A stretch of DNA of 35,796 nucleotides from Emticicia sp. (GTDB lineage Bacteria > Bacteroidota > Bacteroidia > Cytophagales > Spirosomataceae). The position numbers and the translations under genes are program-made. The stretch is from the NCBI GenBank assembly GCA_023254245.1, contig JALQYE010000021.1, forward strand, positions 1 through 35,796, given 5' to 3'. Every line of letters starts with the position of its first letter. The stretch's first letter is position 1. Positions 10,057 to 29,336 of the stretch are shown here, in pieces. The notes beneath the pieces were generated by a model. That model worked only from the letters and a program-made list of their open reading frames with translations. It made no database searches and was not told the DNA's origin.

Positions 10057-10722
10057 CTATTTCAAATACTTCTTCATGTTTTCAACATCTTGTCCGATTT
10101 GGCCAATTAAATCGCTGTAAGTAGCATGAAAATCGCTGAGAGTTGTTTCTATTTTTACGACTGCTTCCGATATTTCTGCTTTCATTTTGCCCATGTCTTC
10201 TTGGTGGGCTGCTATTTCTTGCGTGAGTCTGGCAATTTGCTCGCCTTTGGCTTTAATTGTTGCATCAAGGTCTGTAATAGCTTTTTCTTTACTTCCAATT
10301 TGCTTTTGACGTTGTGCATTGACCGATTCTTGAAATTTTGAGTCTTCGGTCTTTAATACATTCAGATAAAACTGTGCCGAATCATTGAGCTGCTGGCTCG
10401 AAACACCCATTGCTTGTGCCGCAGCATAAGCCGAACTATATCGAGTTGCTTCATCCATTGGCATTTTAGCAAGGGTTTGCAAAGATTTTTTGTATTCCAA
10501 ATAATCAAACCCAGGCTGATTATTCGTTTCCATTGCTTCAAACAAAATGTCGTAAAACTTATCTGAGACTTTGCCCGTTGGCATTACTACCTCAGTTTTT
10601 GTTGTCGCCGTAGCGGGCTTGGTAGTTGCATCAGTTTTTGCAGAAGTAGCTTCGGCAGCTTGTCCATCGGTTGGAGTCTGAACAATAAAAATACCTTTTA
10701 ATTTTGATAAAAAATCGCTCAT
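10057..10722 (-). CDS. Soluble coiled-coil protein, partner of the membrane coiled-coil protein
   Basis: A 221-residue protein with no signal peptide or membrane helix. Residues about 17-48 are a low-complexity Ala/Thr/Lys linker (KTDATTKPATATTK). Residues about 50-130 form a compact helical domain (KFYDILFEAMETNNQPGFDYLEYKKSLQTL; MDEATRYSSAYAAAQAMGV), and 130-221 is a heptad-like coiled coil (IGSKEKAITDLDATIKAKGEQ). I do not recognise a named family. The gene is followed after 148 bases by the membrane-anchored coiled-coil gene on the same strand, which suggests a two-component cytoplasmic/membrane complex. The ATG at 10722-10720 is the first start in the frame. Confidence 0.65.
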   Translation of the reverse strand: MSDFLSKLKGIFIVQTPTDGQAAEATSAKTDATTKPATATTKTEVVMPTGKVSDKFYDILFEAMETNNQPGFDYLEYKKSLQTLAKMPMDEATRYSSAYAAAQAMGVSSQQLNDSAQFYLNVLKTEDSKFQESVNAQRQKQIGSKEKAITDLDATIKAKGEQIARLTQEIAAHQEDMGKMKAEISEAVVKIETTLSDFHATYSDLIGQIGQDVENMKKYLK

Positions 10723-10728
10723 TGTTTT

Positions 10729-10831
10729 TAGGTTTTAGGACGTAGATTTTAGGTATTAACTTTTTGTGTTCACATTAGTTATATATAACTTTTGGCATGT
10801 AGTAAGGAAAAAAGGTTTGTCCTAAAACCTA
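10729..10831. repeat. Inverted repeat in the 318-bp gap before the DUF1553 gene
   Basis: TAGGTTTTAGGAC (10729-10741) is perfectly inverted as GTCCTAAAACCTA (10819-10831). Flanking words (GTAGATTTTAGGTA on one side; TACATCCTATATACCT on the other) extend the pairing imperfectly. The rest of the divergent gap 10723-11040 holds no credible gene; the small plus-strand ORF at 10792-10989 has no recognisable features. Confidence 0.5.
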
Positions 10832-11006
10832 ATTCCTACATCCTATATACCTCAAATGCGATACAAACTTTTGGGTATTTCAAGGATTCTGCAAATTATT
10901 TCATACAACCCAAGCAAAAGGTGTGTCGAATGGCTAAATTTAGTGATGATATTTTGAATATAAATTATTCTCACAAAATATTTATATGAAATCAGCTCGA
11001 AAGTCT

Positions 11007-11014
11007 TAAATTTG
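11007..11014 (+). promoter_or_regulatory. -7 promoter element for the DUF1553 operon
   Basis: TAAATTTG matches TAnnTTTG exactly, 26 bases before the ATG at 11041. A clear -33 element is lacking; ATG at 10985-10987 occupies the position expected for TTG. Confidence 0.45.
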
Positions 11015-11040
11015 TAAGACCCATACTTGTATAGACATCT

Positions 11041-13788
11041 ATGAAACGCTCAAAACTATTTCTTCTAAGTGCTTCTGTTGCGGCTGTTATTGGCTCAATG
11101 GCGTTTAGCTTCAATCCATTCAAAAAAGAGGTTGATTTCAATACTGACGTAAAGCCGATTTTGAACAAACACTGCGTGGCTTGTCATGGCGGGGTAAAAA
11201 AAGCAGCAAACTTAAGTTTTTTGTTTTCGCACGAAGCTATCAATACTAAAGGGAAATCGGGAAAAATTGCGATTGTGGCGGGCAATGCCGAACATTCGGA
11301 ATTTTATAAACGACTCATCACGAATGATTTAGACGAGCGAATGCCAAAAAACGAAGAACCACTCAAAAAAGAAGAAATAGAAATACTGAAACGCTGGATT
11401 GATGGTGGTGCAAAATGGGGCGAACATTGGGCGTATCAGAAACCCGAAAAACCAAATGTACCATCAATTGGTGGATTCTTTGCTCGAATCGGGCTCTTTA
11501 AAGACGATGAAACTCGCTTTGCAAAAAACGAAATCGACCATTTTGTGTTGGAAAAACTCAAAAAAGAAGGACTTTCGCATGCTCCCGAAGCCGAAAAAGG
11601 CACATTGCTACGGAGAGTTTATTTAGATTTAACTGGCCTACCTCCTACCGAACAGCAATTACAAGATTTTTTGAAAGATGAATCGGACGATGCCTACGAA
11701 AAGGTAGTGAATAAACTTCTGGCTTCGCCTGCGTATGGTGAGCGTTGGGCAGCTATGTGGCTCGATTTGGCTCGCTACGCCGACACCAAAGGCTATGAGC
11801 GTGATGTTTACCGAAATATTTGGCGGTATAGAGATTATGTAATCAAGGCTTTTAACGAGGATAAGCCTTTCGACCAATTTACGATTGAACAACTGGCGGG
11901 CGATTTATTGCCCAACCCAACTGATAATCAACTCGTTGCAACGGCTTTTCATAGAAATACCATGACTAACGATGAAGGTGGAACAGTTGACGAAGAGTTT
12001 AGAGTAGCCGCTCAAATTGACCGTGTAAATACTACTTTTGATGTTTGGCAAGGAACAACAATGGCCTGTGTGCAGTGCCACACGCACCCGTATGACCCTT
12101 TCGTGCATGACGAATATTATAAAACAATGGCGTTTTTTAATAATACTCGTGATGAAGACGTGGTGAGCGAAACCCCCTATTTGAGATTCTATAAAAAAGA
12201 AGACTCAACCAAAATTCAAGAAATAAAAAAGTGGATTTTAAGTAAAAGTTCACCCCAAAAAGCCCAAGAATTTGAGCATTTTGCCCGAGTTTTAGAACCG
12301 AAATTCAATTCACACGACATTGAGCAATTATCGCCTGTCACTTCTTCCCTGCTCGATGCCAAATATTTGGGACTTCAACATACAGGTTACGGCAGGTTAC
12401 GGAACGTTACGCTAACTGGTAAAAACAGAATGTTGATGACCTTCAATACGGGCAACGAAAAAGGCACACTACTCGTAAGAGATAATGCCTTAGATGGTAA
12501 AATTTTGGTAAATATTCCGATATTCAAGACCCGTGACACGGTGATGTTTTATAATTTGCCGAAGTTAGAAGGCAAACATGATTTGTATTTTGTATTTACC
12601 AATCCCAAAACTCCGAAAGAATGGTTACAAATCAAATGGGTAGCATTTCAGAATACTTTTGCAGAAACACCTGATTATCAACTCGTTGAAGCAAAATACA
12701 AAGAAGTTTTAAATGCAAAAGCTGATTACAGTCCGATTTTAGTAGAGGGTACAGGAGATTTGGCACGAAAACAACATATTTTCGAGCGAGGAAATTGGCT
12801 CGTAAAAGGCAAAGAGGTTAAACCTGACGTTCCGAAATATTTATCACAAATGCCAAAGGAATATCCTCGTAATAGATTAGGTTTTGCTAAATGGTTGGTA
12901 GATGGCCAAAATCCACTTACTTCGAGAGTGATTGTGAATCGTTTTTGGGAGCAGATTTTCGGCACTGGAATCGTAGAAACTGTTGAAGATTTTGGGACAC
13001 AAGGTTTTACTCCATCGCATCCCGAAATGCTTGATTATCTGGCCGTTACTTTTCAAGATGATATGCAATGGAGCGTCAAGAAACTACTTAAAATGATGGT
13101 AATGTCAGGCACCTATCGTCAATCTTCGGTAGTCAATCAAACTTTAGTTGAGAAAGACCCCACGAATAAATTCTTAGCTCGTGGCCCACGCATCAGGCTC
13201 ACGGCCGAGCAAGTTCGTGACCAAGCGTTGCTCGTGAGTGGGCTTTTATCGCAGAAAATGTACGGTAAAAGCGTAATGCCTTATCAGCCCGAAGGAATGT
13301 GGCAGTCGCCGTGGAGTGGAGAATCGTGGAATACATCAAATGGTGAAGATAAACATCGTCGTGCGATTTATACATTTTGGAAACGCACTTCACCTTATCC
13401 TTCGATGATGTCGTTTGATGCACCGAGCCGAGAATTTTGTCAGTCGAGACGCTTACGCACCAATACCCCTTTGCAAGCACTCGTAACCCTCAACGACCCT
13501 GCGTATGTAGAGGCAGCTCAAGAGTTGGCAAAAAGTATGTTAAAGAAAGGCAAAACGCCCGAACAACAGATTCAGGCAGGTTTCAATAAAATTATGATGC
13601 GAGATATTGATGAAAGAGAATTACGAATTCTTACGAAACTTTATCATCAAACCGAACAACAATACAAGAAAAACCCTGTGGAAGCCTATAAGTTTTTTGG
13701 TCGCTCAGATACTTCTCCTTCTTTGGCAGCTATGGCCGTTACAGCTAACGCAATGATGAATTTAGATGAAGTGGTGACGAAGGAATAA
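11041..13788 (+). CDS. Exported c-type-cytochrome-like protein with PSCyt1, DUF1549 and DUF1553 domains
   Basis: A 915-residue exported protein. After a signal peptide (residues 1-23) comes a planctomycete-type cytochrome c domain with a CVACH haem motif at 45-49 and distal Met candidates near the RMPKNEEP stretch. The DUF1549 (PSCyt2) domain follows (about 160-370: LRRVYLDLTGLPPTE, ARYADTKGYERD, FDQFTIEQLAGDLLPNP) with a second Cys-x-x-Cys-His, CVQCH, at 343-347. The C-terminal DUF1553 (PSD1) domain spans about 625-890 (NRFWEQIFGTGIVETVEDFG; SFDAPSREFCQSRRLRTNTPLQALVTLNDP). Family members are periplasmic and often linked to polysaccharide or sulfated-sugar use; the reaction is unknown. Here the usual DUF1501 partner is missing. 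Two small genes follow at 11 and 45 bases and may share its transcript. Confidence 0.9.
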   Translation: MKRSKLFLLSASVAAVIGSMAFSFNPFKKEVDFNTDVKPILNKHCVACHGGVKKAANLSFLFSHEAINTKGKSGKIAIVAGNAEHSEFYKRLITNDLDERMPKNEEPLKKEEIEILKRWIDGGAKWGEHWAYQKPEKPNVPSIGGFFARIGLFKDDETRFAKNEIDHFVLEKLKKEGLSHAPEAEKGTLLRRVYLDLTGLPPTEQQLQDFLKDESDDAYEKVVNKLLASPAYGERWAAMWLDLARYADTKGYERDVYRNIWRYRDYVIKAFNEDKPFDQFTIEQLAGDLLPNPTDNQLVATAFHRNTMTNDEGGTVDEEFRVAAQIDRVNTTFDVWQGTTMACVQCHTHPYDPFVHDEYYKTMAFFNNTRDEDVVSETPYLRFYKKEDSTKIQEIKKWILSKSSPQKAQEFEHFARVLEPKFNSHDIEQLSPVTSSLLDAKYLGLQHTGYGRLRNVTLTGKNRMLMTFNTGNEKGTLLVRDNALDGKILVNIPIFKTRDTVMFYNLPKLEGKHDLYFVFTNPKTPKEWLQIKWVAFQNTFAETPDYQLVEAKYKEVLNAKADYSPILVEGTGDLARKQHIFERGNWLVKGKEVKPDVPKYLSQMPKEYPRNRLGFAKWLVDGQNPLTSRVIVNRFWEQIFGTGIVETVEDFGTQGFTPSHPEMLDYLAVTFQDDMQWSVKKLLKMMVMSGTYRQSSVVNQTLVEKDPTNKFLARGPRIRLTAEQVRDQALLVSGLLSQKMYGKSVMPYQPEGMWQSPWSGESWNTSNGEDKHRRAIYTFWKRTSPYPSMMSFDAPSREFCQSRRLRTNTPLQALVTLNDPAYVEAAQELAKSMLKKGKTPEQQIQAGFNKIMMRDIDERELRILTKLYHQTEQQYKKNPVEAYKFFGRSDTSPSLAAMAVTANAMMNLDEVVTKE

Positions 13789-14162: not shown

Positions 14163-15065
14163 ATGGAAAGAAGAGAATTTCTTCAAAAAGGTGCATTAGC
14201 ACTGGCAGGTACAGCCGCTTTTTCGAGCGATTTATTAGCTGCAAAAAAAGAAAAACATGTAGTGGGAGTCCAGCTTTATTCTATCAGAGAAGATATGAAA
14301 AAAGACCCGCTCAATAGTCTGAAGAAAATAGCCGAAATGGGTTATACACACGTAGAACACGCTAACTATATCGACCGCAAATTTTATGGATATTCGGCCA
14401 AAGAGTTTCGCAAAGTATTAGATGATTTAGGTCTAAAAATGCCAAGTGGACATACTGTAATGGGTAAAAAACACTGGGATGAAACAACAAAAGACTTTAC
14501 AGACTCTTGGAAACAAACAGTAGAAGATGCAGCCATTTGTGGACAAAAATATGTAATAAGTCCATCGCTTGATATTAGTATGCGTAAAGACTTAGAGCAA
14601 TTAAAGTATTTTATGGATGTTTTCAATAAATCGGGAGAGCTTTGTAAAAAATCAGGTATGAAGTTTGGTTACCACAACCACGATTTTGAGTTTAGTCTAA
14701 AACTCAGTAGTATCAAGGTTTATGATATAATTATGCAGAACACAGACCCAAGTTTGGTTGCACAGCAACTCGACATTGGTAATATGTACGGTGGTGGCGG
14801 ACGTGCTGCCGATTTATTAAAACAGTACCCAGGTAGATTTGAATTAATGCACGTGAAAGACGAAATCAAAAGTGCAACCGAACACATTGGTTGGGAAAGT
14901 GCGATTCTCGGCACGGGTGTAATCGGTGTGAAAGATATTATTGATACAGGTAAAAAATCGGGTGGTACAACTCAATTTATCATCGAACAAGAGTCTTATC
15001 AAGGTAAAGCTCCACTTGATTGCATGAAAGAAGATTTGGCAATCATGAAAAAGTGGGGCTATTGA
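14163..15065 (+). CDS. Tat-exported sugar phosphate isomerase/epimerase-like TIM-barrel protein
   Basis: A 300-residue protein with a twin-arginine signal: MERREFLQKGALALAGTAAF, where RREFL matches the RRxFL motif, cut near LLAA. The mature part is a xylose-isomerase-like TIM barrel (VGVQLYSIREDMKKDP; FGYHNHDFEF; VAQQLDIGNMYGGGG; LMHVKDEI; IIEQESYQG). His and Glu/Asp residues in YHNHDFEF, LDIGN, HVKDE and IIEQE are the likely divalent metal ligands of the family. The substrate is unknown, probably a sugar or sugar acid handled in the periplasm. It is the last gene before a strong hairpin and follows the DUF1553 and phosphatase-like genes closely, which fits a carbohydrate-linked unit. Confidence 0.87.
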   Translation: MERREFLQKGALALAGTAAFSSDLLAAKKEKHVVGVQLYSIREDMKKDPLNSLKKIAEMGYTHVEHANYIDRKFYGYSAKEFRKVLDDLGLKMPSGHTVMGKKHWDETTKDFTDSWKQTVEDAAICGQKYVISPSLDISMRKDLEQLKYFMDVFNKSGELCKKSGMKFGYHNHDFEFSLKLSSIKVYDIIMQNTDPSLVAQQLDIGNMYGGGGRAADLLKQYPGRFELMHVKDEIKSATEHIGWESAILGTGVIGVKDIIDTGKKSGGTTQFIIEQESYQGKAPLDCMKEDLAIMKKWGY

Positions 15066-15110
15066 TATACTTCAGCTCATAACATTCCTTATAAACTTTA
15101 GTTTTTAATG

Positions 15111-15152
15111 TAAAGTACACAAAGCAGCTTCTTTGTGTACTTTATGTTTTTA
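15111..15152 (+). terminator. Rho-independent terminator after the TIM-barrel gene
   Basis: TAAAGTACACAAAG (15111-15124), loop CAGCTT, CTTTGTGTACTTTA (15131-15144) form a perfect 14-bp stem, followed by the T-rich stretch TGTTTTTAATTCTT. It separates the DUF1553 unit from the aldo/keto reductase. Confidence 0.85.
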
Positions 15153-15175
15153 ATTCTTACAACAAACCAAAATTT

Positions 15176-16132
15176 ATGAAATATTTTAGTTTTAGTAATG
15201 GTGATAAAATGCCTGCTTTGGGTTTAGGTACATGGAAATCGGCCAAAGGTGAAGTGTATAAAGCCGTAAGAGAAGCTATTTCCATTGGTTATCGCCACTT
15301 TGACTGTGCCTTCATTTACGGTAATGAAGCCGAAATTGGTCAAGCCATTGCCGATGCTATCAAAAATGGAGAAGTGAGTAGAGAAGAACTTTGGATAACT
15401 TCAAAACTTTGGAATAATCGCCACCGAAAAGAAGATATTCAAGGAGCAATCGAAATTACGCTTCGTGATTTACAGCTTGACTATCTTGACCTTTATCTGA
15501 TTCACTGGCCAATCGTACTCCGTAATGATATTGATTACCCTCAAAGTGGAGAACATTTAGTAAGTCTCAATGACGTTTCTCTGACCGAAACTTGGACAGG
15601 AATGATTGATTTGAAAGCCAAAGGCTTAACCAAACACATTGGAGTTTCTAATTTCAGTATCAAAAAAGTTGAGCAAATAAAAGCAGACACTGGTGTATGC
15701 CCAGAAGTTCTACAACTCGAACTTCACCCATTTCTACAACAAAAAGCCATTCTAAATTTTGCCAACGACAATAATATTATTCTCACAGGTTATTGTCCAC
15801 TTGGTTCGGCCGATAGACCAGCCAGTAGAGTTTCGGTGGGAGAACCAAAGCTATTTGAGAATCAGATGATTCTTGGTATTGCCTCAGAAATTGGTTGCTC
15901 ACCTGCACAAGTAATGCTCGCTTGGGCTGTTTGTAGAGGAACTTCTGTTATTCCGAAATCGGTTAACCCACAACGTTTAGCTGAAAATTTAGCGGCAGCC
16001 GATATCAACCTCTCAGCAACTCAAATGGAAGCCATGAGTGCTTTAGATAAGCATTATAGATATATTAAAGGAGATTTCTGGTGCTTAGCTGGCAGCGATT
16101 ATACGGTAGCGAACCTTTGGGATGAGCAATAA
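15176..16132 (+). CDS. Aldo/keto reductase, NADPH-dependent
   Basis: A 318-residue cytosolic TIM-barrel oxidoreductase, typical length for the aldo/keto reductase superfamily. The catalytic tetrad is complete: Asp43 and Tyr48 in FDCAFIYGNE, Lys77 in WITSKLWNN and His110 in LYLIHWPI. The cofactor-binding end IPKSVNPQRLAENLAAADI contains the Lys-Ser and Arg residues that contact the 2'-phosphate of NADPH. The sequence resembles the aldehyde/aldose reductase group (YGNEAEIGQAI, GVSNFSIKKVEQI). It probably reduces aldehydes or ketones in detoxification or sugar metabolism. It has its own region after the terminator; the Crp/Fnr pair follows 103 bases downstream. Confidence 0.93.
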   Translation: MKYFSFSNGDKMPALGLGTWKSAKGEVYKAVREAISIGYRHFDCAFIYGNEAEIGQAIADAIKNGEVSREELWITSKLWNNRHRKEDIQGAIEITLRDLQLDYLDLYLIHWPIVLRNDIDYPQSGEHLVSLNDVSLTETWTGMIDLKAKGLTKHIGVSNFSIKKVEQIKADTGVCPEVLQLELHPFLQQKAILNFANDNNIILTGYCPLGSADRPASRVSVGEPKLFENQMILGIASEIGCSPAQVMLAWAVCRGTSVIPKSVNPQRLAENLAAADINLSATQMEAMSALDKHYRYIKGDFWCLAGSDYTVANLWDEQ

Positions 16133-16203
16133 TTTGGGGTATTTATCTACAAATTTCACCATTTGTAAAAAAAGAATGTCATAAAAGGCAAATTTTATGC
16201 TCA

Positions 16204-16234
16204 TTTGTGATTCATTTTTCAAGAGAATCACAAA
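16204..16234 (+). promoter_or_regulatory. Perfect inverted repeat abutting the start codon of the first Crp/Fnr gene
   Basis: TTTGTGATTC (16204-16213) and GAATCACAAA (16225-16234) are perfect 10-bp inverted arms with an 11-base spacer; the second arm ends one base before the ATG at 16236. The arms contain the CRP-like words TGTGA and TCACA, but 17 bases apart in place of the canonical 6. It may be an operator for autoregulation or an mRNA hairpin over the start site. Confidence 0.55.
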
Positions 16235-16235
16235 A

Positions 16236-16817
16236 ATGAATCATTATTACGAAAAACTCTTCGATTATGTATCTGAAATTCTGGTAATGCCAGAATCGGA
16301 CAAAAAGCTTTGTAGGCAATTATTTAAGCCTATTTTTGTGCCCAAAGATACCATCATTGAAAGAGCCGAAACGGTTCATCAGAATCATACATTTATTGTT
16401 TCGGGTTTCATGCGAAACTTTTATATTGATAACGATGGCAACGAAATAACCAATGATTTGAACGACGGCCCGAGGTTTTTTACTTCATATTTTCATTTTT
16501 TGAATCGTACGGTTTCAAACGAAACCGTACATACCATTACCGATTGTGAATTACTACAAATCAGTCGAGATGACGTCGATATTGCAGCTACTCAAGGCAT
16601 TACGCAGAAAGATTATACCGTTCAGATTTTGAATAAACGCTTGGAAATCAACAAACAACGGGCTTTTGATATGGCCAACCTAACAGCCGAAGAACGTTAT
16701 AATAAATTTGTGAAAGAAAACCCCAATATCATTCGTCATGTACCTTTGGGTTATATTGCTTCATTTTTGGGCATTACCCAACGACATTTGAGTAGATTAC
16801 GAAAAGAACATAGGTAA
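16236..16817 (+). CDS. Crp/Fnr family transcriptional regulator (first of a tandem pair)
   Basis: I place the start at the ATG at 16236 (193 residues, MNHYYEKLFDYVSEI) and not at the track's 16197, because the latter would run the coding region through a perfect inverted repeat and adds 13 residues not typical of the family. Residues about 20-130 form a cyclic-nucleotide-binding-type beta barrel (IFVPKDTIIERAETVHQNHTFIVSGFMRNFYI); the C-terminus is a winged helix-turn-helix with LGYIASFLGITQRHLSRLRKE. No iron-sulfur cysteine cluster is visible. The recognition helix reads QRHLSR, differing from the E..SR of FNR. It lies 9 bases before a second regulator of the same family and is probably co-transcribed with it. 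The effector is unknown. Confidence 0.9.
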   Translation: MNHYYEKLFDYVSEILVMPESDKKLCRQLFKPIFVPKDTIIERAETVHQNHTFIVSGFMRNFYIDNDGNEITNDLNDGPRFFTSYFHFLNRTVSNETVHTITDCELLQISRDDVDIAATQGITQKDYTVQILNKRLEINKQRAFDMANLTAEERYNKFVKENPNIIRHVPLGYIASFLGITQRHLSRLRKEHR

Positions 16818-16826
16818 AACACAAAA

Positions 16827-17390
16827 ATGACAACTGTAATTTTAAAAAAAATTGGTTATTTCTCAGATAAAGACATTGAACTTTTTGAAAAAAGCCTGTC
16901 CAAGAGAATAATTCAGAAAGGTGAAATTCTCCTCAAACAAGGTCAAATTTGTCAAACAGTATATTTTATTTCAAAAGGGGCATTTTTAGAATACAATTTC
17001 AAAGACGAAATCGAACAAAATATCATTGATTTATACCTCGAAAATCAATGGCTTTTGAATAAACAAAGTTTTGTGCGTCAAGAGCCTTCTGATACCATCA
17101 TCGAAGCATTTTGCGAAAGTACCGTTTGGGGCTTAGACATTCACACTATTCATCACTTGATTGCACATTCACCAGCCTTTCTGCAACTGGGAAGTATTTT
17201 AGAGCCAGCACATTCACGAGTTAAATTTTTCGATAACTCACTTACGCCATTACAAAAATATCAATACCTCCTCGATAATCGTAGAGAGATTATACAGGTT
17301 TTTCCCTTAAAAATTATTGCTTCTTATCTAAAAATAACACCCGAAACCCTCAGTAGAGTAAGAGAAAAACTATCAAAAAGACTTTCTTGA
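16827..17390 (+). CDS. Crp/Fnr family transcriptional regulator with FNR-type recognition helix (second of the pair)
   Basis: A 187-residue protein with an effector-binding beta barrel (residues about 15-110: IIQKGEILLKQGQICQTVYFISKGAF) and a helix-turn-helix at about 160-182 (FPLKIIASYLKITPETLSRVRE). Glu173, Ser176 and Arg177 in PETLSR line up with the E..SR residues by which E. coli FNR (ETISR) reads the TTGAT half-site. Two perfect TTGATnnnnATCAA palindromes lie just downstream; the first overlaps this gene's own stop codon. It lacks the N-terminal cysteine cluster of oxygen-sensing FNR, so its signal must differ. It starts 9 bases after the first regulator. Diverged in sequence from its neighbour, so the duplication is old or the two were brought together. 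Confidence 0.9.
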   Translation: MTTVILKKIGYFSDKDIELFEKSLSKRIIQKGEILLKQGQICQTVYFISKGAFLEYNFKDEIEQNIIDLYLENQWLLNKQSFVRQEPSDTIIEAFCESTVWGLDIHTIHHLIAHSPAFLQLGSILEPAHSRVKFFDNSLTPLQKYQYLLDNRREIIQVFPLKIIASYLKITPETLSRVREKLSKRLS

Positions 17391-17401
17391 TTAGAATCAA
17401 G
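17386..17401 (+). promoter_or_regulatory. FNR-box-like operator in front of the VOC gene
   Basis: CTTGATTAGAATCAAG is a perfect 7+2+7 palindrome matching TTGATnnnnATCAA. It overlaps the TGA stop of the second Crp/Fnr gene. Its centre (17393.5) is 34 bp from the centre of the -7-like element at 17424-17431, which puts it near -41 if the usual Bacteroidota numbering holds, the class II activator position. Confidence 0.75.
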
Positions 17402-17423
17402 TAATTATCTGAGTTTGAAACTG

Positions 17424-17431
17424 TACTTTTA
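17424..17431 (+). promoter_or_regulatory. -7-like promoter element for the VOC gene
   Basis: TACTTTTA matches TAnnTTTG in all but the last base. No TTG is found 17-19 bases upstream, as expected for a promoter that depends on an activator bound at the adjacent palindrome. The ATG is at 17449. Confidence 0.45.
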
Positions 17432-17448
17432 GAGATAAAAAAATAACC

Positions 17449-17820
17449 ATGAAACATAACGCTATTTCTATCAGACCGTTTATTGGAGCAAAGAATTTTG
17501 AAATTTCTCGTAGCTTTTACCGAGACTTAGGTTTTCAAGAAGTCATTTTAGGACATAATTTTTCTTACTTCAAAACCGAGGGTATCGGCTTTTATTTACA
17601 AGATGCCTACGTAAAAGATTGGGTTGATAACTCCATGATTTTTTTGGAAGTAGATGATACTGACCGCTACTACGACGAGCTTTTAAAACTAAATTTAACC
17701 CAAAAGTACGATGGTGTAAGACTAACGCCAGTCAAAGTATTACCGTGGGGAAAAGAGTGCTTTCTGCACGACCCATCGGGCATATTATGGCATTTTGGTG
17801 AGTTTTTTAATAAAGAGTAA
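17449..17820 (+). CDS. VOC (glyoxalase/bleomycin resistance) superfamily protein
   Basis: A 123-residue single-domain protein of vicinal-oxygen-chelate type: two beta-alpha-beta-beta-beta modules, the first from IRPFIGAKNFEISRSFYRDLGF to GIGFYLQD, the second from SMIFLEVDDTDRYYDELLK to CFLHDPSGILWHFGEF. The DPSGILWHFGE ending is the usual family signature. The exact reaction (glyoxalase, fosfomycin- or bleomycin-type resistance, dioxygenase) cannot be told from sequence. It has its own promoter-like region with an FNR-like palindrome 47 bases before the ATG, so it is likely a target of the neighbouring regulators. Confidence 0.85.
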   Translation: MKHNAISIRPFIGAKNFEISRSFYRDLGFQEVILGHNFSYFKTEGIGFYLQDAYVKDWVDNSMIFLEVDDTDRYYDELLKLNLTQKYDGVRLTPVKVLPWGKECFLHDPSGILWHFGEFFNKE

Positions 17821-17826
17821 AGCTTT

Positions 17827-17842
17827 CTTGATTACAATCAAG
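17827..17842 (+). promoter_or_regulatory. FNR-box-like operator in front of the six-helix membrane gene
   Basis: CTTGATTACAATCAAG has the same fourteen palindromic bases as the site at 17386-17401 and differs only in one of the two central bases. Its centre (17834.5) is again 34 bp from the centre of the -7 element (17865-17872). Confidence 0.78.
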
Positions 17843-17856
17843 TGTAGGCTTTAAGA

Positions 17857-17896
17857 TGAGCATCTACTTTTGTAGCATCACAAAAATAGATGCTCA
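17857..17896 (+). promoter_or_regulatory. -7 element enclosed by a 10-bp inverted repeat ending at the start codon
   Basis: TACTTTTG at 17865-17872 matches TAnnTTTG exactly. It is flanked by the perfect inverted arms TGAGCATCTA (17857-17866) and TAGATGCTCA (17887-17896); the second arm ends on the base before the ATG at 17897. No TTG lies at the usual -33 distance, consistent with activator dependence. Confidence 0.6.
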
Positions 17897-18541
17897 ATGA
17901 AAACAACTTTCACAAAATTTACAGGTTATTGCTTAGTTATTGGCTCGGTCTTGATGATTCTCACGATGGTTTTACACCCCGCAGGTGGTGATTTAAAGCA
18001 TATCATCAAAATTTCAAATGTGCTTATCATCAGTCATTCGATTGGTATTTTAAGCATGCATTTTGTACTGTTTGGCTTCTATGGTTTATCCGAGAACTTA
18101 TTAACCAAAAATCGCCTCTCCTATTTAGGCTTTGCATTTATCATTTTTAGTTTGATTGCAGGAATGATGGCTGCTTCAATTAATGGTTTAATATTGCCGA
18201 TGTTTGCTTCAAAGTTTTCGACCGAATCTGGGAAAAACCTCGAAACCGTCAAACTTATAATCAGTTACGGTTCTAAATTCAATAAGGCTATGGATTATAT
18301 TTTTATTTCGGGATATTCGATTGCCATGTTTATTTGGTCATTCATTATTATTCAAACCTCAAAACTACCTCGTTGGATTGGCTTTTATGGTTTTATTCTT
18401 TTGGCATTCGTAATCATAGGTTTTATAGTCGAATTCAATTTTATCAGCGTTTGGGGATTCAGAATCTACATTTTCGGAATTGTTAGTTGGATTTTATTCA
18501 CTGGAATATCTATGATAAGACCAACGTCTCAGCACAAATAG
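17897..18541 (+). CDS. Six-helix membrane protein of unknown function
   Basis: A 214-residue inner-membrane protein with about six helices (YCLVIGSVLMILTMVLHP; VLIISHSIGILSMHFVLFG; GFAFIIFSLIAGMMAASI; IFISGYSIAMFIWSFIII; GFYGFILLAFVIIGFIV; IYIFGIVSWILFTGISMI). Histidines in helices 1 and 2 (LHPAGGD, SHSIG, MHFV) are the only polar residues that stand out; they could bind haem or metal, but that is speculation. It does not match a family I can name. An FNR-like palindrome and a consensus -7 element precede it, and a DUF2306 membrane-protein gene follows 101 bases downstream with its own palindrome. Confidence 0.7.
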   Translation: MKTTFTKFTGYCLVIGSVLMILTMVLHPAGGDLKHIIKISNVLIISHSIGILSMHFVLFGFYGLSENLLTKNRLSYLGFAFIIFSLIAGMMAASINGLILPMFASKFSTESGKNLETVKLIISYGSKFNKAMDYIFISGYSIAMFIWSFIIIQTSKLPRWIGFYGFILLAFVIIGFIVEFNFISVWGFRIYIFGIVSWILFTGISMIRPTSQHK

Positions 18542-18593
18542 CATTTATATTAAAAAATCGCCACTCATCCTAATAGGACATTTGTCTAAAAAC

Positions 18594-18646
18594 GCATAAA
18601 GAATAGCACCTTAATTTTGAAAAAACAAAAACGCTATTCTTTATGC
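18594..18646 (+). promoter_or_regulatory. -7 element inside a 14-bp perfect inverted repeat that covers the start codon
   Basis: GCATAAAGAATAGC (18594-18607) is perfectly inverted as GCTATTCTTTATGC (18633-18646), the second arm including the ATG at 18643. Between the arms lies TAATTTTG (18612-18619), an exact TAnnTTTG element, implying a leader of only about 20 bases. The layout suits a repressor that bridges both arms over the promoter, or an activator at the upstream arm. Confidence 0.65.
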
Positions 18647-19467
18647 AAAACAATACGCTTTCTTCCGAAAATCTGAATTATAACTCAAAATTATTAGATT
18701 TATCCGCAAAACTTTGGTTCGTTATTGCCTTTGTTGGTCAATGGATTTTTGGCTTTTATGTAGTTTCGGTTTACCATGTTTCAACTTTCAAAGGCAACTT
18801 TGAAAAATGGAATACTGTGCTACCAAAAGGCTATGTTGTGGGCGACTGGAAAGGAAATCTGATGGTTGGCATTCATGTAATTTTAGCTGCAATTATGATA
18901 ATTGGTGGCCCTCTACAATTTATTCCGCAGGTACGTGAAAAGCTTCCAACTTTTCATCGTTGGTTGGGTAGAATTTATGTTATCACTGCCATTGTAGTAA
19001 GTTCGGCAGGTTTCATTATGGTCTGGACACGTGGCACGGTTGGCGATACTTTTATGCACATAACCAACAGTATTCAAGTCGTTTACATTATATTTTTTGC
19101 TATTCAAACAATTAGATTTGCTCAAAAACGACTAATACAAGAGCACCGAAAGGCGGCACTTCGCCTTTTTATGGTAGCCAATGGTGTTTGGTTTTTCAGA
19201 GTTGGACTAATGGCTTGGTTAGTCATCAACCAAGCACCTGTAGGCTTCAATCCCGATACTTTTACAGGGCCATTCTTGTGGGTACTATCTACTTTTGCTT
19301 ATGCCGTTCCGATTTCTTTCATTTTGCTCGAACTGTATTTTTATGCTCAGAAAGTACAACGACAAATTTTTTCTAACATTACCTCAGCAATTATTTTTTT
19401 ATTTACAATCATTATGGCTATCGGGATTTTTGGAGCAACAATGGGCATGTGGCTACCAAGAATATAA
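18643..19467 (+). CDS. DUF2306 family membrane protein
   Basis: A 274-residue inner-membrane protein with about seven helices. The signature GGPLQFIPQVREKLPTFHRWLGRIYV (residues about 90-115, shortened here to GGPLQFIP and FHRWLGRIY) and the later EHRKAALRLFMVANGVWFFRVG are typical of DUF2306. The conserved histidines (MVGIHVILAA, FHRWLG, MHITNS, EHRKAA) are placed like those of membrane haem or copper proteins, but the family has no assigned activity to my knowledge. The start at 18643 lies inside a perfect inverted repeat. It is the last gene of the Crp/Fnr-associated group and converges with the porD-like gene. Confidence 0.87.
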   Translation: MQNNTLSSENLNYNSKLLDLSAKLWFVIAFVGQWIFGFYVVSVYHVSTFKGNFEKWNTVLPKGYVVGDWKGNLMVGIHVILAAIMIIGGPLQFIPQVREKLPTFHRWLGRIYVITAIVVSSAGFIMVWTRGTVGDTFMHITNSIQVVYIIFFAIQTIRFAQKRLIQEHRKAALRLFMVANGVWFFRVGLMAWLVINQAPVGFNPDTFTGPFLWVLSTFAYAVPISFILLELYFYAQKVQRQIFSNITSAIIFLFTIIMAIGIFGATMGMWLPRI

Positions 19468-19505
19468 ACATTAAAGAACTGATAATAAGAACATTGGTTA
19501 TAAAA

Positions 19506-20414
19506 TCACTTTACTAACTTTCTATAAAGTTCGGTTTTTGAAGGGTCAACGGCAGACAATAAGGTGAATGCTTTTTGCTTTTCATCTTTGGTAGCTTCCG
19601 AAAATATGTTTACCATTTCTTGATTTTTAGCATTCATAAAGCTATTCAAAAGTACCGAATTAGTCTTTAATTGCTGCATAGCTTTTATGGAGTTCAGTAA
19701 ATCCATTACTTGTTTGCGTCCGCCTACTGGGTCAATCGTAAAGTTATCAAGAGCAATGCGGTGATAATTATAAAGCCCTTCACGAAAAGCAGCCAACTGC
19801 TGATTCTGAAGATTTTCTACCAACCAATAACGATTACGTTGGTCACCTGATTGTTCCCAGCCACCTTGCCCAGCACTTGAGGCTAAGTTGGCAATATTAT
19901 AGGCTCTCGTCAAGTACGGATTTCCACCTAATTTCCCAAACGAATCATAATCAACCGTAAGGGCAATTAAGGAATAGAAACCTAAAATTGATGTTAAATT
20001 ATTGGTAAAAGTTTGCTCGTTGAAATTCATTTGTCGGTCTTCGGGCGTGAACGAAATATTGAAATTTCGGTCAACATAACTCAGCACTATGGTTTCGTAA
20101 GTAGTGTTATACACAGGACGAATCACCTGAAACTGAGCATTCCCTTGATAGACATTTTGCTGCGGAGATTTTGTAAATGTAATAATCAAATTACATTTGA
20201 TACGTTCTTCTTGGCTATAAATATCGCTTGTCCAGCGTTTTCCGTTCATAAAATCGCTAATTGCCGTTTTCATGTCAACAAACACTTGCTTTTCTGATGC
20301 CTGCTGAGACTGCAATTGGTCAGAAACAATCGTTACGTTACAGTTTATTTCCTGAGCTTTACTCACAAACGAGCCAGTTAGTAATGCTAATAATACAAGT
20401 TTTTTCATTTTCAA
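19506..20414 (-). CDS. DUF4835 family protein, PorD-like (type IX secretion-associated)
   Basis: A 302-residue protein with a signal peptide (MKMKKLVLLALLTGSFVSKAQ, cut near KAQ-E) followed by EINCNVTIVSDQLQSQ, the usual N-terminus of the mature DUF4835 protein. Later landmarks are FMNGKRWTSDIYSQEERIKCN and YYSLIALTVDYDSFG-like FYSLIALTVDYDSFGKLGGN. The family is restricted to Bacteroidota and, as I recall, is annotated as the type IX secretion protein PorD in some databases. It sits 90 bases downstream of coaBC on the same strand, a conserved arrangement. Either ATG at 20414 or 20408 could be the start. Its exact role in secretion or gliding is not visible. Confidence 0.85.
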   Translation of the reverse strand: MKMKKLVLLALLTGSFVSKAQEINCNVTIVSDQLQSQQASEKQVFVDMKTAISDFMNGKRWTSDIYSQEERIKCNLIITFTKSPQQNVYQGNAQFQVIRPVYNTTYETIVLSYVDRNFNISFTPEDRQMNFNEQTFTNNLTSILGFYSLIALTVDYDSFGKLGGNPYLTRAYNIANLASSAGQGGWEQSGDQRNRYWLVENLQNQQLAAFREGLYNYHRIALDNFTIDPVGGRKQVMDLLNSIKAMQQLKTNSVLLNSFMNAKNQEMVNIFSEATKDEKQKAFTLLSAVDPSKTELYRKLVK

Positions 20415-29276: not shown

Positions 29277-29336
29277 AAGGAAGGCTTCGCTTATAGCGAA
29301 GCCTTCCTTGAATAATTCTTTCTATAAAGAATTTTT
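29277..29336. terminator. Bidirectional terminator between convergent tamL and rpoZ
   Basis: AAGGAAGGCTTCGC (29277-29290), loop TTATA, GCGAAGCCTTCCTT (29296-29309) form a perfect 14-bp stem; on the minus strand it is followed by a T run (CCTTTTTGTG), serving rpoZ. A second hairpin AATTCTTT-CTAT-AAAGAATT (29314-29333) followed by T can stop plus-strand transcripts from tamL; it overlaps the rpoZ stop codon. Confidence 0.9.

Follow-up and report, generated by a model that had tools for sequence, protein, structure and literature searches.

The promoter of a DUF2306 membrane-protein gene in the 35,796-nt stretch of Emticicia sp. DNA analysed here (the window) lies inside a perfect inverted repeat that reaches into the start codon. 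We interpret it, with a probability of about one half, as an activator-dependent sigma-A promoter nested in a hairpin that would block translation of readthrough RNA. Under this interpretation, an activator of the Crp/Fnr family, most likely encoded by the gene at 16236–16817, would bind a palindrome centred near -42 and recruit RNA polymerase to the -7 element TAATTTTG (18612–18619), with transcription beginning near 18624, within the repeat. The gene's own mRNA would carry the right arm only and keep its start codon open, whereas RNA arriving from co-directional upstream genes would carry both arms, fold (about -19 kcal/mol) and bury the start codon. The membrane protein would thus be made only upon activator firing, and stray RNA would be silenced by the hairpin. 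The operator, its fixed spacing, the co-occurrence of the regulator, the repeat and the recurring complementarity with different arms come from comparison; activation, the start site, readthrough and the translation block are predicted.

The repeat and its gene neighbourhood

The DUF2306 gene (18643–19467; PF10067, E 7e-12) is on the + strand, as are the other genes, operators, promoter elements and start-abutting repeats of its group. The genes upstream of it are two for Crp/Fnr-like regulators of the cyclic-nucleotide-binding type (regulator 1, 16236–16817, PF00027 E 4e-6, which is 0.5 bit under the gathering score; regulator 2, 16827–17390, PF00027 E 1e-7), one for a glyoxalase/bleomycin-binding-like small protein (17449–17820) and one for a membrane protein without a name (17897–18541). 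While the open reading frame of regulator 1 opens at 16197, its start is most likely the conserved one at 16236 (MNHYY in the window), since its orthologues likewise begin MNHYY or MEHYY. No terminator-like sites were found on the + strand between 16000 and 19600, and no Rfam matches above the gathering score in 15900–19600. The nearest relative carrying this DUF2306 gene is Emticicia aquatilis. Elsewhere in the window there are two perfect hairpins with short loops, one of 14 bp at 15111–15144, a possible terminator in the interval between a gene that ends at 15065 and one that starts at 15176, and one of 15 bp at 29277–29309.

The initial annotation described a 14-bp perfect inverted repeat whose arms, 25 bases apart, enclose an exact TAnnTTTG element, and its coordinates and letters were confirmed. 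The left arm, GCATAAAGAATAGC, occupies 18594–18607, and the right arm, GCTATTCTTTATGC, its reverse complement, occupies 18633–18646, taking in the ATG (18643–18645) and the following C, as had also been reported. Chance origin of the repeat is rejected: arms of at least 14 bp with a spacer of at most 60 are expected about 0.02 times by composition across the whole window and about 5e-6 times over one given ATG, and 0/2000 local shuffles held such a repeat. The window contains three perfect arms of at least 14 bp, compared with 0 in shuffles. Two further start-abutting repeats claimed for this gene group were found, at 16204–16243 and 17857–17896, and the arm sequences indeed differ among the three.

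Several simple explanations were rejected or merely considered. A search for the arm sequence across the organism's own genome, which had been proposed as a check, returned exact matches only to these two arms, and a shared regulon for the arm sequence was rejected on this basis. An intrinsic terminator was rejected, as the repeat is not followed by a T run. An invertible promoter was only considered; the arms stand 25 bp apart and are not the same in the three promoters.

A Crp/Fnr-type operator lies upstream of the repeat

The initial annotation overlooked the elements that are likely to bind regulators, namely a palindrome at 18574–18589 and a second operator type before neighbouring genes. 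The upstream block CCACTCATCCTAATAGGACATTTGTCTAA (18561–18589) is kept in 37 homologous promoters, drawn from about 40 Spirosomataceae genomes, with strong conservation of the block CCGCTCATCCGTATTGGACATTTGTCTAA, and contains the palindromic operator core TTrGACATTTGTCyAA (18574–18589, centre 18581.5). In the window, the operator centre is 30.5 bp upstream of TAnnTTTG, and in 36/37 homologues the distance between operator and -7 element is constant, at 24 or 25 nt after GACAnnTGTC.

At class II promoters activated by Crp/Fnr proteins, a dimeric palindrome lies at about -42, at a fixed distance from the core promoter element. The DUF2306 promoter resembles these in having a palindrome near that position, a fixed distance to its core element and an adjacent Crp/Fnr-family gene; it differs in its Bacteroidota -7 element, TAnnTTTG, in that a pattern search over the family found one such operator-promoter in the organism's own genome, and in that activation is predicted. 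The position of the operator follows from Flavobacterium, where TAnnTTTG is located at -12 to -5 (PMC9723704). This placement puts the predicted transcription start at 18624, with a leader of 19 nt (the median 5' UTR in flavobacteria is 24 nt; PMC9723704) and the operator centre at about -42 to -42.5, the class II reference being near -41.5.

The operator also travels with a regulator. All genomes with the operator at the DUF2306 gene encode a regulator 1 orthologue (36/36, E 1.4e-75 or better), while four Runella genomes contain the DUF2306 gene but lack both operator and regulator, a co-occurrence with a probability of 1.1e-5 by simple counting that makes no correction for descent. In G052, G057, G122 and G174, the regulator 1 orthologue precedes an unrelated gene that has this operator in front of it. 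From these patterns we consider this Crp/Fnr-type operator, rather than the reported arms, to be the likely site of the regulator, and regulator 1 to be most likely the protein that binds 18574–18589 and the likely activator of the DUF2306 promoter.

The same spacing bears on the idea that the real transcription start is upstream of the left arm, so that the hairpin would be part of the main mRNA and act as a 5'-UTR riboregulator (a thermosensor or small-RNA target). An AU-rich stem that hides the start codon would suit such a role, but in the homologues TAnnTTTG or a close relative keeps a constant distance to the operator and sits inside the hairpin, the second operator type of the group has the same 30.5-bp distance, and there is no Rfam match. 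We regard this as highly improbable.

The second operator type consists of FNR-box-like CTTGATTnnAATCAAG palindromes before the 17449 and 17897 genes, each 30.5 bp from a TAnnTTT element. Before the glyoxalase-like gene, the operator CTTGATTAGAATCAAG (17386–17401) is paired with the -7 element TACTTTTA (17424–17431), and before gene 17897, CTTGATTACAATCAAG (17827–17842) is paired with TACTTTTG (17865–17872). With this promoter spacing, CTTGATTnnAATCAAG occurs at just two places in the organism's own genome, and it is conserved upstream of homologues of the 17897 gene. Regulator 2 is the natural candidate and likely binds these operators. The companion repeats are located at two of the group's start codons. 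First, a 10-bp inverted repeat, TGAGCATCTA...TAGATGCTCA (17857–17896), lies directly before the ATG at 17897, in a region that folds at -19.3 kcal/mol. Second, a 10-bp repeat at 16204–16234 ends one base before the ATG at 16236 and is overlapped by a 12-bp pair at 16208–16243; beyond Emticicia, the 16204 repeat is not conserved. With the window promoter left out, hairpins at the second operator type gave z -2.8 for the whole right side and -1.2 for the start-codon region only, which is weaker support than at the DUF2306 promoter.

Complementarity recurs with different arms

Among orthologous promoters, the arms are conserved within genera and replaced between them. In E. aquatilis both arms are letter-identical to those of the window, with a spacer of 23 instead of 25, whereas other genera have different pairs, such as GCGAAAAA/TTTTTCGC (L024), AGAAAGG/CCTTTCT (L027) and TCATAGC/GCTATGA (L067). 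The initial annotation was to fall if orthologous promoters lacked conserved arms, and the result is divided, with identity in E. aquatilis speaking for it and the different sequences in other genera against it. In Dyadobacter the usual finding is an inner palindrome, TTTAAGTTTG..CAAACTTAAA, which surrounds the -7 element, ends before reaching the ATG and varies in spacing between 21 and 23 bp. Significant outer arms are missing in about half of the lineages, among them most Dyadobacter, and these retain only the inner palindrome. Near-perfect forms of the inner palindrome in Dyadobacter, Spirosoma and Larkinella (e.g. L036, L041) present facing TAnnTTTG-like elements on both strands, with sequence conserved over genera.

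We compared complementarity across these promoters without alignment, pairing the 21 nt before the -7 element with either the promoter's own start-codon region or that of another. Own-arm pairing was better than swapped pairing (permutation z -5.9, 20 pruned sequences). For six control region pairs in the pruned set, z ranged from -2.4 to +1.1. After dropping both Emticicia sequences with the reported arms, z for own-arm pairing was still -3.7 to -4.9. Against composition-matched shuffles, 9/22 pruned homologous promoters reached p<0.05 (Fisher 7e-9; 2e-7 without the window), compared with 1/54 other Emticicia promoters (Fisher 0.70). Considering this difference, complementarity is a property of this promoter family and not of the genome. 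In G057, where the same promoter precedes an unrelated downstream gene, the hairpin has p 0.001. Column-wise covariation (RNAalifold, pair counts) was no better than in shuffles, and arm swaps between nearest relatives did not significantly weaken pairing (p 0.14 and 0.31).

A genome-wide design was rejected, as promoters from sampled stretches of two Emticicia genomes lack general complementarity (the same 1/54), with a few outliers. Further repeats that span TAnnTTTG and reach the start codon were seen at L083 (G000:C111:1-20000, minus-strand gene 10426–13701), L094 (8052–8090) and L085 (2600–2650), with arms of 16, 11 and 16 bp; they precede genes for two TonB-dependent receptors and a GH97 glycosidase. 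On the minus strand of L080 (G000:C444:1-20000), a 20-bp perfect repeat, CCCCTAACCCCTAAAGGGGG, lies 4 bases before an ABC-transporter ATPase gene (14770–15507) and may belong to a dispersed repeat family.

Two explanations of the arms other than a translation-blocking hairpin are addressed by these comparisons. Template-switch mutations could make and mend quasi-palindromes without selection, as would be consistent with weak column covariation and with pairing that is best when only Watson-Crick pairs are counted. Such neutral origin appears quite improbable considering that control promoters of the two Emticicia genomes lack such pairing and that distant lineages show it again at this position. 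The arms could also serve as an operator for a further protein, namely a repressor binding both half-sites around the core promoter. The repeat surrounds the -7 element and start site, a usual location of repressor sites, E. aquatilis and the window have identical arms, the inner palindrome is conserved in sequence over several genera, and there is no preference for G-U pairs. However, neither half-site sequence nor spacing is conserved among orthologous promoters: the arms vary from one genus to another and from one promoter of the group to the next, and the centre-to-centre distance shifts by 2 bp even between the closest orthologues, as the inner palindrome does between 21 and 23 bp. The arm also has no other exact match in the genome, complementarity extends into the start codon, and no candidate repressor gene was identified, such that we consider a repressor unlikely.

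The initial annotation had left a choice between different regulators and one shared RNA-level logic. The RNA-level logic is favoured, and a repressor on the arms is less likely, because the arms differ by lineage, occur at a single site and shift in spacing between closest orthologues, yet complementarity recurs. Strand asymmetry does not separate action as RNA from action as DNA, as sense and antisense scores are similar and G-U pairs add nothing.

Predicted folding of readthrough RNA and own mRNA

The two RNAs expected from this locus differ strongly in predicted structure. Readthrough RNA of the window contains both arms, with the ATG in the 14-bp stem, and folds at -18.9 kcal/mol (z -8.3). 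The gene's own mRNA would carry the right arm alone, because the predicted start at about 18624 sits in the loop, and is predicted to be unstructured at its beginning (z +0.5). The cost of opening the start region in the window rises from 1.7 kcal/mol in own mRNA to 16.4 kcal/mol in readthrough RNA; the corresponding homologue means are 3.2 and 7.5 kcal/mol, and those of control promoters 2.9 and 4.3 kcal/mol. The difference between homologues and controls has p 6e-6, calculated over sequences that are not independent.

Outside Runella, the homologues inspected have co-directional upstream genes. At the single Runella locus examined (L072), the upstream gene is divergent and a repeat is still present, which counts against insulation from readthrough. 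Insulation is nonetheless favoured because of the opening costs, the co-directional upstream genes and the lack of terminator-like sites on the + strand. A long stem in readthrough RNA would fit equally well if the hairpin were a processing or stability element of that RNA, e.g. an RNase III site. We find this improbable, considering that the stem includes the start codon and that the cost of opening it increases more than it does for control promoters.

Relation to known systems and implications

Hairpins that silence RNA from outside are familiar from the IS10 and IS50 transposase genes: when RNA begins outside the element, the repeats at its ends conceal the start of translation. The likeness is that an inverted repeat would mask a translation start in outside transcripts only; the difference is that here the repeat spans one promoter, with no transposon or element ends. 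Another parallel is sigG of Bacillus subtilis, for which a hairpin has been proposed that prevents translation of transcripts coming from the operon upstream and that transcripts begun at the gene's own promoter are unable to form (PMC5942855). The DUF2306 arrangement would work like that hairpin, a likeness for which we claim no class membership, as in both the promoter's position would leave its own transcript unable to fold into the long hairpin, with start site and readthrough being predicted in our case. The systems belong to different phyla and promoter classes: sigG involves sigma-F/sigma-G and a ribosome-binding site, while the DUF2306 promoter has a Crp/Fnr-type operator, the start codon itself in the stem and arms that are replaced between genera. 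Among open-access papers we found nothing direct on promoter-nested hairpins in Bacteroidota or on DUF2306 with Crp.

A broader version of the translation-blocking hairpin is speculative and in our judgement doubtful: in Spirosomataceae, and perhaps more widely in Bacteroidota, genes under conditional activation, beginning with Crp/Fnr targets, might commonly be insulated by nesting the core promoter in a start-codon hairpin with repeatedly reinvented arms, as a terminator substitute where Shine-Dalgarno sites are little used. For the DUF2306 gene, the comparison provides an uncharacterised membrane protein with a concrete Crp/Fnr-type operator and a likely regulator across a bacterial family. 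It also suggests a route by which genes in packed, terminator-less neighbourhoods may be kept silent against readthrough and, if confirmed, would make promoter-nested hairpins searchable as a class.
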